From contig CAMYJD010000041.1 in NCBI GenBank assembly GCA_947258655.1, forward strand, positions 1 to 36,524: a DNA stretch of 36,524 nucleotides, in the 5' to 3' direction. Made by a program: the position numbers and the translations under genes. The DNA comes from an uncultured Gammaproteobacteria bacterium. GTDB taxonomy: Bacteria; Pseudomonadota; Gammaproteobacteria; JAADHQ01. This document shows positions 1,148 through 6,899 of the stretch, piece after piece. How positions within the stretch are numbered: the first letter of the stretch is position 1; each line of letters starts with the position of its first letter. Under the pieces are notes generated by a model. The model made no database searches. It saw only the letters and a list, made by a program, of their open reading frames with translations, and had not been told where the DNA came from.

Positions 1148-3415
1148 TCAACCGCGCGCGCCACCCGAATAAGTAATCAACGAACCTTTTTCAGTGTTGC
1201 CACTGCCACCGGTAACCTTGCTATTCGGTACTGGCAATTCTTCGTTACGCTTCTCCTCAACCCTCATTGCATTTGCCATGCCTGTACGTATGGTTGGATT
1301 GCGCAGAACCGCAGAACGTCCCTCTGTTCCTGTAACAGACTGGTTTCGCTCCCAGTCATCACCAGTAATCTTGAGTCCGGCATCCTGACCTTCGCCAGTG
1401 ATACGTGACTTGACACGTCCTTCGACTTCTTCAGCAACTACCGGTCGGCTCTGTGTTTCTACCGGACCATTGCCAAAACGCGCTTCTTCGGTACCGGTGA
1501 CCTTACCAGTAGCCATACCAAACGGCCCGGTAATAGAACCCTGTTCATATTGGTTGCCGGTAACACCGGTCGAACCCAGGGCCTGTTGTGCACCACCAGA
1601 CGGTTGCTCGACGCTGAACTGCTGCCACGGTACCTGACCTGCCATAGCCTGCGGAAAGTCAGGGCTGGCCGTATCGGCCGGCGTTGCCGGGCACGCTTCG
1701 GCATACTGGTCCGCACCAACATATGGCGTACCTGTCAGCGGTTCGCAAACACCCTTAGTGGCGCCGGTCATAACGCCACCGACTCCAGGCTGGATACCAG
1801 TCATAGGCATAGCCGGTGTTGCACGTAATTGTTTAGTGCGCATTTTCGCCATCGCTGCGTCTTCAGCCTGGCAAAAATTTACCGTCGCGTCCTCGCTGGC
1901 ATAAGGTGTACCGGTTACAGTCTTGCAAGTACCTGGCTCATTACCCGTGACCTTGTTTTCACGGTCGGTCATGGTGCCGGTTACCGCCTTACCTTTAGCT
2001 GTTGATGAAACACCAACCTTGCGGTCCTGCGGTGATGGCGCCGTGTTGCAGAAACCGCTGTACTGTTCCTGTCCGACATAGTCATCGCCGGTGATGTTTC
2101 GGCAACTGCCCGGCTCATCGCCGGTCATGCGCTCACGTCGACCAACCATCGTACCGGTAACACTGCCACCGCGTAATGTGGCACTGACGCCTACTTTGGC
2201 CGGCGCGGCACCAATCTCTTCAGCCTGGGTATACTGGGTACCGGTAAGGGCACGGCTCATACCCGGCTCATCACCCGTTACATTTTCCGAGCGACCGACA
2301 TTGCTACCGGTCATCGCTTTACCCTTGTTCGTTTGCGCAACAGTCACCTTGCTGGGCGACTTGCTCATCAATTCGCCACAATACCCCTGTGACTGTTCAG
2401 CGCTGATGTATTCGTCGCCGGTAACCCTTTTACAGGTACCCGCTTCATCACCGGTAACACTGGCACTGCGTCCAACGCGTGTACCACTGACCGGATTACC
2501 GCCTGAAGTCGAGGTTACATTCACCTTGCGTGGCGTCGCCTTTGGATCGGCCTGACAGAAATCACGAAAGATATCTGCACCGAGGTATTCTGTGCCGGTA
2601 ATACCACGACATGTGCTGGGCTCGTCACCGGTGACACTGGTGCTGCGACCGACCATGGTTCCGGTAACCGTCTGGCCTTCAGCAGTTTCACTGGCACCGA
2701 CTTTCCACGGTGCGTCCTGAGCTGCTCCAGTGTCACCTGATGTTTTTGGGCGACGGCGACCACAGGGTTCGGATTTCTTCTGACCAGCACTACCCATCTT
2801 GCTGCGTTGTTCGCGCAGTGCTTTAGACAGATCACGACTATTCAGGTTTGGATTACCTGCACGTGCGGTCTGAGCTGCGGTCATACCATTCTTGCCAACA
2901 CCCGCTTTGCCACGATTAGACATCGCTTCACGACGTGCCAGTGAGGCAATGCGGCCAACCGAGCGATTGATCGATTGCTTCGCCTGATTAATGCTAGCTG
3001 CTGTTGCAGTCGGTGCCGTTGCCGCTTTCATGCTGGTTTTGCATTCGGTGCGTGTACCATCACAGCCACAACCGCAGCCTTTCTTTTCAGGTGCAGCCGT
3101 CGCCGAAGCCGCTGCCGCAGCTGTGCTGCTCCCGATCTCGTCTGCCGTACGAATACGATCCTTGCTCTGGATTCCCTTCTTGCCGCCACTGGACATCGCC
3201 AGACGACGAGCCAGGGAAGCAGCACGGCCTACGGAAGCCGACTTGCTTGCAGGCGCCGCATAAGATGCTGTCGCAGTAACAGGCGCCGATACCGCAGCCG
3301 ATCTTGCCTGTGCAGTTCTCTGAGCGGTATTTGACTGTAACGAAACCTTGCCTGATGTAGACATGGCTTTGCGTCTTGCCATTACCAGCTCGCGTGTGCT
3401 CTGTGCTTGTGCCAT
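1148..3415 (-). CDS. csoS2: Carboxysome assembly scaffold CsoS2
   Basis: CsoS2 is the disordered scaffold that links RuBisCO to the shell during alpha-carboxysome assembly. The 755-residue protein has the expected three parts. The N-terminal region has basic RuBisCO-binding repeats near residues 7-27, 63-83 and 153-173 (pattern ARRxAMSxxGK), and a more divergent one near 193-215. The middle region has about six repeats of V/I-T-G motifs starting near residues 238, 297, 356, 407, 466 and 535. The C-terminal region (about 600-755) has further TG motifs and ends in the conserved shell-binding type tail with LITYSGGARG. The third middle repeat lacks both cysteines found in its neighbours. A Cys-rich patch (GCGCGC, 113-118) lies between the N repeats. 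A possible -1 frameshift site at codons 512-514 would give a 517-residue short form. It lies between cbbS and csoSCA. Confidence 0.97.
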   Translation of the reverse strand: MAQAQSTRELVMARRKAMSTSGKVSLQSNTAQRTAQARSAAVSAPVTATASYAAPASKSASVGRAASLARRLAMSSGGKKGIQSKDRIRTADEIGSSTAAAAASATAAPEKKGCGCGCDGTRTECKTSMKAATAPTATAASINQAKQSINRSVGRIASLARREAMSNRGKAGVGKNGMTAAQTARAGNPNLNSRDLSKALREQRSKMGSAGQKKSEPCGRRRPKTSGDTGAAQDAPWKVGASETAEGQTVTGTMVGRSTSVTGDEPSTCRGITGTEYLGADIFRDFCQADPKATPRKVNVTSTSGGNPVSGTRVGRSASVTGDEAGTCKRVTGDEYISAEQSQGYCGELMSKSPSKVTVAQTNKGKAMTGSNVGRSENVTGDEPGMSRALTGTQYTQAEEIGAAPAKVGVSATLRGGSVTGTMVGRRERMTGDEPGSCRNITGDDYVGQEQYSGFCNTAPSPQDRKVGVSSTAKGKAVTGTMTDRENKVTGNEPGTCKTVTGTPYASEDATVNFCQAEDAAMAKMRTKQLRATPAMPMTGIQPGVGGVMTGATKGVCEPLTGTPYVGADQYAEACPATPADTASPDFPQAMAGQVPWQQFSVEQPSGGAQQALGSTGVTGNQYEQGSITGPFGMATGKVTGTEEARFGNGPVETQSRPVVAEEVEGRVKSRITGEGQDAGLKITGDDWERNQSVTGTEGRSAVLRNPTIRTGMANAMRVEEKRNEELPVPNSKVTGGSGNTEKGSLITYSGGARG
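1874..1880 (-). other. Candidate -1 ribosomal frameshift heptamer in csoS2
   Basis: On the minus strand the sequence reads A AAT TTT in phase with the csoS2 codons Val512-Asn513-Phe514, which fits the X XXY YYZ slippery pattern. A -1 slip reads Leu-Pro-Gly and then TGA, giving a 517-residue protein that lacks the last middle repeat and the C-terminal region. CsoS2 of Halothiobacillus neapolitanus is known to be made as short and long forms by -1 frameshifting. An 8-bp complement (CCAGGCTG with CAGCCTGG, loop about 71 nt) begins 2 nt downstream, but this spacing is shorter than usual, so the stimulating structure is uncertain. Confidence 0.55.
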
Positions 3416-3503: not shown

Positions 3504-3845
3504 TTAACGGCCTTCGTAAACTACGAAACATGAACCCTGTGACTGGGTGTAGCTGTCGTAGCCCAGCAGACGTACGTGATGATCAGGGAACGCACGGTGG
3601 CAAGCCTCAAGCTCGGCCAGTACGGTACCCATGTCAGTTTCGCCGAAAAACGGCAGCTTCCACATGGTCCAATAATGGTCCATCGAGTTGCTTGGGTGCT
3701 CATGCTCGATCGCAGGCGACCAACCGTTGGCAATAATGTATGCAACCTGCGCCTGGATATCACTTGCGTCCATTTTTGGCAGGAAGCCGAAAGTTTCGAG
3801 TGTTTGGGAAGTTTCGTAGTTACCCATATCAGTCGTCATTGGCAT
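3504..3845 (-). CDS. cbbS: RuBisCO small subunit, form IA
   Basis: This is the small subunit of the L8S8 ribulose-1,5-bisphosphate carboxylase/oxygenase, which caps the catalytic large-subunit core in the carboxysome lumen. The 113-residue length is normal for form IA. Recognisable family features are the N-terminal stretch ETFGFLPKM, the YIIANGWSPAIEHE segment, MWKLPFFGETD and the C-terminal HVRLLGYDSYTQSQG region. The ATG at 3845 is preceded by a purine-rich ribosome site (GAGGAAAAAG). It lies 54 bp downstream of cbbL and 88 bp upstream of csoS2, so it is co-transcribed in the cso operon. Confidence 0.98.
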   Translation of the reverse strand: MPMTTDMGNYETSQTLETFGFLPKMDASDIQAQVAYIIANGWSPAIEHEHPSNSMDHYWTMWKLPFFGETDMGTVLAELEACHRAFPDHHVRLLGYDSYTQSQGSCFVVYEGR

Positions 3846-3899: not shown

Positions 3900-5315
3900 T
3901 TAACCCACGTCCAGTTTGTCGACAGTTTCAAATTCGAAGACGATTTCTTTCCAGGTCTCCATCGCGATAGCCAGCTCAGGACTGGTACGTGCAGCTTCGG
4001 TCAGAATGTCACGAGCTTCTTTCTCGATCTGACGACCTTCGTTACGCGCTTTGACACTGGCTTCCAGTGCAACACGATTAGCAGCCGCACCCGCAGCATT
4101 ACCCCAAGGGTGACCCTGTGTACCACCACCGAACTGCAGTACTGAATCATCACCGAAGATAGTAACCAGTGCCGGCATGTGCCATACGTGGATACCACCG
4201 GAAGCAACGGCGAATACGCCTGGCATTGAGCCCCAGTCCTGGTCGAAGAACACACCACGTGAACGATCTTCCGGTACGAAAGATTCACGCAGCTGATCTA
4301 CAAAACCTAATGTAGAGTTACGATCACCTTCGAGTTTACCAACAACAGTACCGGTATGCAGGTGGTCACCGCCAGACAGACGCAGACACTTGGCCAGTAC
4401 GCGGAAGTGAATACCGTGTTTCGGATGACGGTCGATAACCGCATGCATCGCACGGTGAATATGTAACAACATACCATTGTCACGACACCAGTTAGCCAGA
4501 CCTGTATTCGCTGTAAAACCACCGGTCAGGAAGTCATGCATGATGATCGGGCAGCCAACTTCTTTAGCGAATTCAGCACGCTTGTACATTTCTTCAGGAG
4601 TAGAAGCCGTTACGTTCAGGTAATGACCCTTACGCTCACCAGTTTCGCGTTGTGCCTTGTCAATCGCTTCAGCTACGAACTCGAAACGGTCACGCCAGCG
4701 CATGAATGGCTGAGAGTTAACGTTCTCGTCATCCTTGGTCAGGTCCAGACCGCCGCGCAAACATTCGTATACTGCACGACCGTAGTTTTTGGCAGACAGA
4801 CCCAGTTTCGGCTTGATTGTCGCACCCAGCATTGGACGACCGTATTTGTTCAAGCGATCACGCTCGACCTGGATACCGGCAGGCGGTCCACCACAGGTCT
4901 TGATATACGCGATTGGGAAACGAATGTCTTCCAGACGCAGATGCTTCAGCGCCTTGAATCCGAATACGTTACCGACCAGCGATGTCAGAACGTTTACGAC
5001 AGAACCTTCTTCAAACAGGTCGATCGGGTAAGCAATGAATGCATAGAAAGACTCAGGGTCACCTGGCACATCTTCGATGCGATAGGAGCGACCCTTATAG
5101 AACTCAAGGTCAGTCAACAGCTCGGACCATACAGTAGACCAAGTACCTGTTGAACTTTCCGCAGCTACCGCAGCCGCAACTTCTTCACGGGGTACTTCTG
5201 GCTGGCCCGTACACTTGAAGCATGCAAGCAAATCGGTATCGAGCGGCACATAGTCCGGAGTCCAGTATTTATCGCGGTATTCCTTAACACCCGCTTTATA
5301 GGATTTTTCAGCCAT
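3900..5315 (-). CDS. cbbL: RuBisCO large subunit, form IA (carboxysomal)
   Basis: This is the catalytic large subunit of RuBisCO, fixing CO2 onto ribulose-1,5-bisphosphate in the Calvin cycle. At 471 residues it is full length. The carbamylated lysine is Lys194 in [10 protein letters not shown], with metal ligands Asp196 and Glu197. The loop-6 segment [13 protein letters not shown] and the motifs [11 protein letters not shown] and [12 protein letters not shown] are intact. The sequence near [18 protein letters not shown] is typical of form I enzymes, and its place directly before cbbS and csoS2 marks it as the carboxysomal form. The ATG at 5315 has a good AGGAG ribosome site a few bases upstream. 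The 391-bp gap upstream probably holds its own promoter. Confidence 0.99.
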
Positions 5316-5706: not shown

Positions 5707-6282
5707 TCATGCTGTTCTGCTATGCGCATATATATTGCGCAACTGCCGGGTCTTTTCCAGCATCCGATAGGTCGAGCGGTTGTTGTTGTAACTTGTCACA
5801 TGCATCAAGCTGACCCAGATCACATCGTGTGACTCATCATTGCCAGGCACCGGCAGACGGTCGTCAATCTCGACAAGAAAACGGATATCGATGTGTTCGT
5901 GGCGAGGATCGCCGTGCATTGCCGGTATCGTATGGATATCCACATCAAAAATATCCGAGCCAAGCAAATGGATATGAGATGGATCGATACCGGTCTCTTC
6001 CGCCGTTTCACGTAATGCTACACGCACGATATCGGCATCACCGTCGGCATGCCCGCCCGGCTGAAACCACTGGTCGTGTTTCTTATGATGCATCATCAAA
6101 ATCTTACTACGGTCCGGGTTGACTACCCATGCCGAACCGGTCACATGGGCCGGCCACAGTTCTCGATAAAAAATGTCACTATGCGCCTCAACATAATTGA
6201 GCGCTCGCCTGATATAACCCGCCTCGTCCATATACCGGGTCTGATGTTGATATAATAATGTCAGCAGTTCCTGTCTATGCAT
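5707..6282 (-). CDS. NUDIX hydrolase
   Basis: This 191-residue protein belongs to the NUDIX superfamily, which cleaves nucleoside diphosphates linked to another group. The NUDIX box runs from about residue 76 to 100 (GGHADGD ... RETAEETGI). The metal-binding REXXEE core is intact, while the usual first Glu is Asp, as in the GGHADGD subfamily. The N-terminal 50 residues are helical and lack a signal peptide, so it should be cytosolic. Its ATG begins 2 bp after the csoS1D stop codon, a spacing that suggests translational coupling. It lies between a shell protein gene and cbbL. The substrate cannot be read from sequence; a role in clearing damaged nucleotides or sugar phosphates around the carboxysome is only a guess. 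Confidence 0.9.
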   Translation of the reverse strand: MHRQELLTLLYQHQTRYMDEAGYIRRALNYVEAHSDIFYRELWPAHVTGSAWVVNPDRSKILMMHHKKHDQWFQPGGHADGDADIVRVALRETAEETGIDPSHIHLLGSDIFDVDIHTIPAMHGDPRHEHIDIRFLVEIDDRLPVPGNDESHDVIWVSLMHVTSYNNNRSTYRMLEKTRQLRNIYAHSRTA

Positions 6283-6284
6283 GG

Positions 6285-6899
6285 TCAGGTACCTGAAGGA
6301 TTTTCCACCGCCCTGATCGCTGCAGCCGCAGCTTCTTCAACATCGGCTTCGCGACCGGACAGGGTCAAACGACCGTATGCCCCGACCGCACGCACGTCAA
6401 TCAGCGTAATATTGGCGGCTTTTTCGGCCTGATTGGCGGCATACACAATATAACCGGCCGGTTGGGTCTCGAGAATAAACATACTCTCCCCAGGCAACAT
6501 CATCGATCCACCGCGGTGCTGGCGATTGATCAGGACGGCATGGTCCGAGGTCATACCATAAATGATTTCCTGCCATTCGATATTGCAATGGTCACGGTCT
6601 TCGACGCGTGCGCCAATGCTGGACAACAGAACTTCGCCGGCCTCGATAACATCACTCTGGTCACGATGATGAATAACCATCGACCCAAAGGCGCGCTCGA
6701 CGACCTGCTGGGTCAACTTGACCTGGGTTGCCTTCAGGGCGATGTCGGTGACTTTATGCACGGCCATGCCCGGGGATACCTCGACCCACAAACAGGCGTC
6801 GCCAGGAACGGGTGGAAAACCCTGGGAAACAGAGGCCATATACTCGGCGAGCTGCGGCTGCAAGGAGTCTATATAGACATAGGTTCTGAGTTCTACCAT
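6285..6899 (-). CDS. csoS1D: Carboxysome tandem-BMC shell protein CsoS1D
   Basis: CsoS1D is a pseudohexameric (trimeric) shell protein made of two fused bacterial microcompartment domains. Trimers stack and form a large pore that opens and closes, thought to pass RuBP and 3-phosphoglycerate. The 204-residue sequence closely follows the cyanobacterial CsoS1D from its ELRTYV start, including LDSLQPQLA-like and [17 protein letters not shown] segments. The pore-gating pair equivalent to Glu120-Arg121 is Glu68-Arg69 in VVERAFGS. The second domain carries EPAGY-like and [11 protein letters not shown] segments. The roughly 50-residue N-terminal extension of the Prochlorococcus protein is absent: an in-frame TAA lies 13 codons upstream of this ATG. 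It is first in a csoS1D-NUDIX pair directly upstream of cbbL. Confidence 0.95.

Follow-up and report, generated by a model that had tools for sequence, protein, structure and literature searches.

The csoS2 gene of the window, by which we mean the whole stretch of 36,524 nucleotides analyzed here, very probably carries a programmed -1 ribosomal frameshift signal made up of the slippery heptamer A_AAT_TTT and a stem-loop. A first-pass annotation of this DNA had taken the heptamer to predict 2 forms of CsoS2, and that prediction is supported by the conservation of the heptamer, by fixed third bases in the codons around it, by the stop in the -1 frame, by the stem-loop, and by a peak of synonymous conservation limited to one clade. 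The gene is flanked by cbbL-cbbS and csoSCA, identifying it by the Pfam domains of the locus as the CsoS2 gene of a cso operon, and a genome search finds it in single copy. No overlapping gene is present at the slip site, where csoS2 is the sole open reading frame of at least 80 amino acids covering the stretch. The features are collected in Table 1. The locus also has an adjacent NUDIX-domain gene and BMC-domain shell gene, the latter possibly csoS1D, close to Rubisco (5707-6282 and 6285-6899, both on the minus strand).

Table 1. Features of the csoS2 locus and of the predicted frameshift site, in window coordinates
Feature	Position	Strand	Basis
csoSCA, carboxysome carbonic anhydrase, truncated by the contig end	1..1092	-	PF20686, PF20687
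csoS2, full-length CsoS2B-type product, 755 aa	1148..3415	-	ORF and translation; PF12288 CsoS2_M, E = 7.8e-167
Predicted stem-loop UGCCA-G-GCUG-AAGACG-CAGC-GA-UGGCG, 9 pairs	1847..1873	-	Folding and 12-sequence comparison, RNAalifold consensus
Nine-codon run of invariant third bases (512-520), core of the conserved RNA element	1856..1882	-	12 genes
Remaining -1 frame tail and UGA (Leu-Pro-Gly-stop)	1863..1873	-	UGA at 1865-1863; LPG-stop in 12/12 members
Predicted 517-aa short form resembling CsoS2A, with the N-terminal region and five M repeats	1863..3415	-	Translation with -1 shift
Fifth M repeat, residues 466-515, with the heptamer in its last codons	1871..2020	-	Repeat pattern read from the translation
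Slippery heptamer A_AAT_TTT, codons N513 and F514	1874..1880	-	Sequence; identical and in phase in 12/12 clade members
cbbS, Rubisco small subunit	3504..3845	-	PF00101
cbbL, Rubisco large subunit	3900..5315	-	PF00016, PF02788

Because csoS2 is on the minus strand, the heptamer reads from 1880 down to 1874. The zero frame around it is GTA AAT TTT TGC, encoding V512, N513, F514, and C515. The annotation had A AAT TTT correctly phased at codons 512-514 and at the end of the fifth middle repeat; the phase is confirmed, with the heptamer lying over N513-F514, and the repeat pattern agrees on the position. There are 6 M repeats in the protein, and the Pfam CsoS2_M region takes in the heptamer. In the -1 frame the next codons are TTG CCA GGC TGA, the first of which overlaps the heptamer at base 1874, so that residues 1-514 followed by LPG make 517 residues. 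The annotated TGA after 3 codons, and a 517-residue product without the C-terminal region, are thus reproduced by the -1 translation as a prediction, and the predicted form has neither the sixth repeat nor the C-terminal domain, long-form residues 518-755 being absent. Its predicted C-terminal peptide is TVTGTPYASEDATVNFLPG, or the homologue of this in relatives.

In the csoS2 of the window alone, the heptamer is not above chance. The window holds 10 copies of AAATTTT where about 5 would be expected. The heptamer groups most efficient in E. coli include H_HH.U_UU.Y and V_VV.A_AA.R (PMC4066793), of which A_AAU_UUU belongs to the first and C_CCA_AAR to the second. When the synonymous codons of csoS2 are shuffled with the protein and the codon make-up kept, 70% of the shuffles have at least one in-phase heptamer of the classes efficient in E. 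coli, in 30% such a heptamer is followed within 5 codons by a stop in the -1 frame, and 10% have AAATTTT at exactly the site of codons 513-514. Neither the count nor the shuffles give a clear excess, so the case rests on conservation across 12 genes. Another heptamer of the gene, C_CCA_AAA, is in phase at codons 223-224 (2744-2750, minus strand), within the N region, and its -1 frame meets a stop after 3 codons. This CCCAAAA at codon 223 is also found in L003 and L019 and is absent from the other members; being in so few of them it is probably incidental, and it could serve as a decoy control.

For the comparison, 109 distinct csoS2 frames were gathered from bacterial genomes. Alignment of the site across CsoS2 genes, the check that the first-pass annotation had proposed, finds the heptamer shared at the same site by 12 of the 109, and in every one of these it is in phase with LPG-stop in the -1 frame. 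The proteins of this clade, in which the window is included, are 60-93% identical with a mean of 69%. Order-level searches around 2 positive genomes add a single genome match (G760, L136), which is possibly the same as L006. The other repeats of the same genes are without the heptamer, their ends being coded by non-slippery sequence, for example GAT TTC TGC.

Over the 12 genes, the third base is invariant in 31 of 733 codon columns. Codons 512-520 make up the longest unbroken series of these, with nine columns, and the second longest has 2. The amino acids in or just after the nine-codon run do vary, with Glu, Val, Gly, or Ala at 512, Gln, Arg, or Pro at 516, Asp or Val at 519, Ala or Val at 520, and Met, Leu, or Val at 522. 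A chance heptamer, carried along by ordinary protein conservation or by local gene conversion, would suit a heptamer that is not rare in a single gene and a peptide, NFCQAED, that is conserved as protein. Third bases that stay fixed while the residues change at all 5 of these positions contradict this account, and we consider it extremely improbable, as neither protein constraint nor recent copying explains the run. Codon 517 gives a further indication, since its GCT supplies the T of the -1 UGA; all 12 genes use GCT for this alanine versus 266 of 1,122 alanine codons gene-wide.

Codon 512 is GAA, GTA, GGA, or GCA, ending in A in 12 of 12 genes, where A-ending codons across these genes account for 12% of Gly, 24% of Val, and 35% of Ala. 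This constant A before AAT, kept across 4 amino acids, is left unexplained by transcriptional slippage, in which RNA polymerase would add a base on the U5 run to give mRNAs that read into LPG-stop. All 12 genes do have the T5 run (TTT TGC), and an added U would lead to the identical product. Such slippage also leaves the exact X_XXZ_ZZN phase unexplained, and a run of 5 is short for slippage by the polymerase, so that we hold this route to be very improbable.

A scan for synonymous conservation, in line with a ribosomal frameshift, has its largest excess of 681 windows at the slip site, with z about 5 over the 12 genes, and the 9-pair stem-loop and the -1 UGA lie within the peak. No synonymous peak is seen at the site when the scan is run on the sister group that lacks the heptamer (L007, L008, L010-L012, L041). 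As a positive control, the Halothiobacillus-type genes described below have their strongest windows at, and immediately downstream of, the slip site that they carry.

The stem-loop, or a close variant of it, can be formed right after the heptamer in every clade member. In the pairing table for the 12 sequences, 97% of cells are paired, 6 of the 9 pairs are invariant, and 3 cells are unpaired; the only changes are G-C to G-U and A-U to G-U, with no double-sided changes. The folding energy in the window is -12.1 kcal/mol with z of -1.9, only moderately better than shuffles. The predicted structure is plausible, and too invariant for covariation support. A stimulator is usually found 5-9 nt from the heptamer (PMC5009743). 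The outer stem of the structure has a spacer of 0 nt, and the inner 4-bp stem taken by itself is at 6 nt, which may be where the ribosome entry channel would meet the stem-loop. Other stimulators were considered. A search for pseudoknots and long-range helices over +140 nt left only the local stem-loop as plausible and kept in nearly all sequences; one perfect match found in the window, CCAGGCTG/CAGCCTGG, is lost in relatives, as judged by eye. GGAG or GGAT at about -12 resembles a Shine-Dalgarno stimulator in several members, not in all, and no such stimulator is consistent over the clade.

Conservation that extends beyond the heptamer into the stem-loop might also be expected of some other RNA element, such as an internal start at codon 522 or a protein-binding or stability element, with the heptamer incidental to it. 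Codon 522 is ATG, TTG, or GTG, each a possible start codon. There is no strong ribosome-binding site in the sequence upstream of it, and its first base is variable and unpaired and is followed by the UGGC of the stem, so that the NTG is explained without initiation. The first heptamer base is moreover the exact point where the conservation starts, the -1 stop is taken in as well, and the Halothiobacillus-type genes have the same arrangement at a different heptamer of their own, making an element unrelated to slippage quite improbable.

By the mechanism we favor, programmed -1 frameshifting, a ribosome would pause at the stem-loop while AAU is occupied by tRNA-Asn and UUU by tRNA-Phe, and in a fraction of passages both tRNAs would slip one base back to AAA and UUU, with Phe re-pairing perfectly. 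Leu-Pro-Gly would then be read in the -1 frame before UGA ends the chain at 517 residues, and ribosomes that do not slip would make the 755-residue form. The short form would keep the Rubisco-binding N-terminal region and 5 M repeats, and would lose the sixth repeat and, with the C-terminal domain, its anchor to the shell. From the sequences we infer that slippage would occur and that both forms would enter the carboxysome.

Programmed -1 frameshifting is already known in the csoS2 of Halothiobacillus neapolitanus, where CsoS2A has 570 residues including 3 from the -1 frame, shifting is about 50%, and there is a 3' stem-loop (PMC5009743). The slip site there is in the sixth of 7 repeats, and the short CsoS2 is dispensable for carboxysome formation, yet roughly equal in amount (PMC11365436). 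The H. neapolitanus CsoS2 sequence in PDB ID: 9ly8 has A565-P566-K567, and since 567 residues plus 3 give the 570-residue short form, the slip site read from this protein sequence would be C_CCA_AAR at P566-K567. Among the gathered frames, relatives of this gene have C_CCA_AAR at that place across many families, in L086, L087-L090, L093-L097, L101, and L120 (with L122-L130 of the same genus). In the C_CCA_AAR genes, the -1 frame reaches UGA at its fourth codon, and a 7-bp stem that hardly varies, GGUGACG/CGUCACC, starts exactly 6 nt downstream.

The resemblance noted in the first-pass annotation, between this gene and the short and long forms of Halothiobacillus, holds for the gene, the -1 direction, the 3 residues from the -1 frame, a short form, predicted for the window, without the C-terminal domain, and a 3' stem-loop, which for the window is likewise predicted. 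It holds also for the geometry, in which, counted from the start of the heptamer, UGA is at +15 to +17 and a stem starts at +13, and for the use of the penultimate M repeat, the sixth of 7 there and the fifth of 6 in the window. The advice to treat the site as an independent case is equally borne out, because the heptamer is different and so is its place in the repeat. In the Halothiobacillus type, C_CCA_AAR is in the first half of the repeat and precedes 'xTGDE', whereas A_AAT_TTT of the window is at the very end. The penultimate repeat of the window csoS2 has no C_CCA_AAR heptamer at the P-K before xTGD, and that heptamer is found in a separate 12 genes.

In a csoS2 protein tree, built quickly and having some long branches, the 12 A_AAT_TTT genes are apart from the 12 C_CCA_AAR genes. 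Each set falls in a supported part of its own, and many genes lacking a heptamer come between the two. The simplest reading of this is 2 origins, and it is likely that frameshifting gave rise to a two-form CsoS2 in alpha-carboxysome bacteria on at least 2 occasions, the heptamer and its point in the repeat differing and the geometry being the same. The alternative would be an ancestral single slip site that was later lost and relocated. A survey by Chaijarasphong et al. (2016, J Mol Biol 428:153) reportedly described -1 frameshifting in csoS2 with 79 predicted frameshifters. Every titled record in the A_AAT_TTT clade is a metagenome-assembled genome, so this type was probably outside that survey.

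A second slip site, separately placed and strongly conserved, is comparative evidence of selection for making the short form. If 2 origins are true, this would imply that selection favors a set proportion of scaffold with and without a shell anchor, as opposed to the retention of one inherited ancestral site. The clades with either site, along with their close relatives having none, make up a contrast set for the effect of the short form on carboxysome size and Rubisco packing.

Other genes also make 2 products. In E. coli dnaX, the heptamer is A_AAA_AAG with an upstream Shine-Dalgarno stimulator. As would be the case for csoS2, a heptamer with a stem-loop leads to a shorter product that ends soon after the shift; the heptamer itself and the Shine-Dalgarno stimulator are the differences, no such stimulator being consistent in the A_AAT_TTT csoS2 genes. 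The beta-carboxysome protein CcmM also has long and short forms, for which a comparison has been made (PMC4499774). It is a different protein with the likeness that one gene gives 2 scaffold forms, one of them without a shell-side domain. The short form of CcmM is not known to be produced by frameshifting.

A few of the gathered genes are of interest in themselves. L099 and L100, from one family nested in the A_AAT_TTT clade, are without the heptamer and have fewer recognizable repeats, which could be a secondary loss of the short form. L041 (JABDRC010000140.1) is titled 'Halobacteria archaeon' and has a typical gammaproteobacterial csoS2 locus with 68% identity to the window, so the record is probably mislabeled or a mixed bin. 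L023 and L024 are 2 full csoS2 genes on 2 contigs (C7 and C206 of G343) of one assembly, MAG MO_133.B26, possibly representing either 2 carboxysome operons or a mixed bin.
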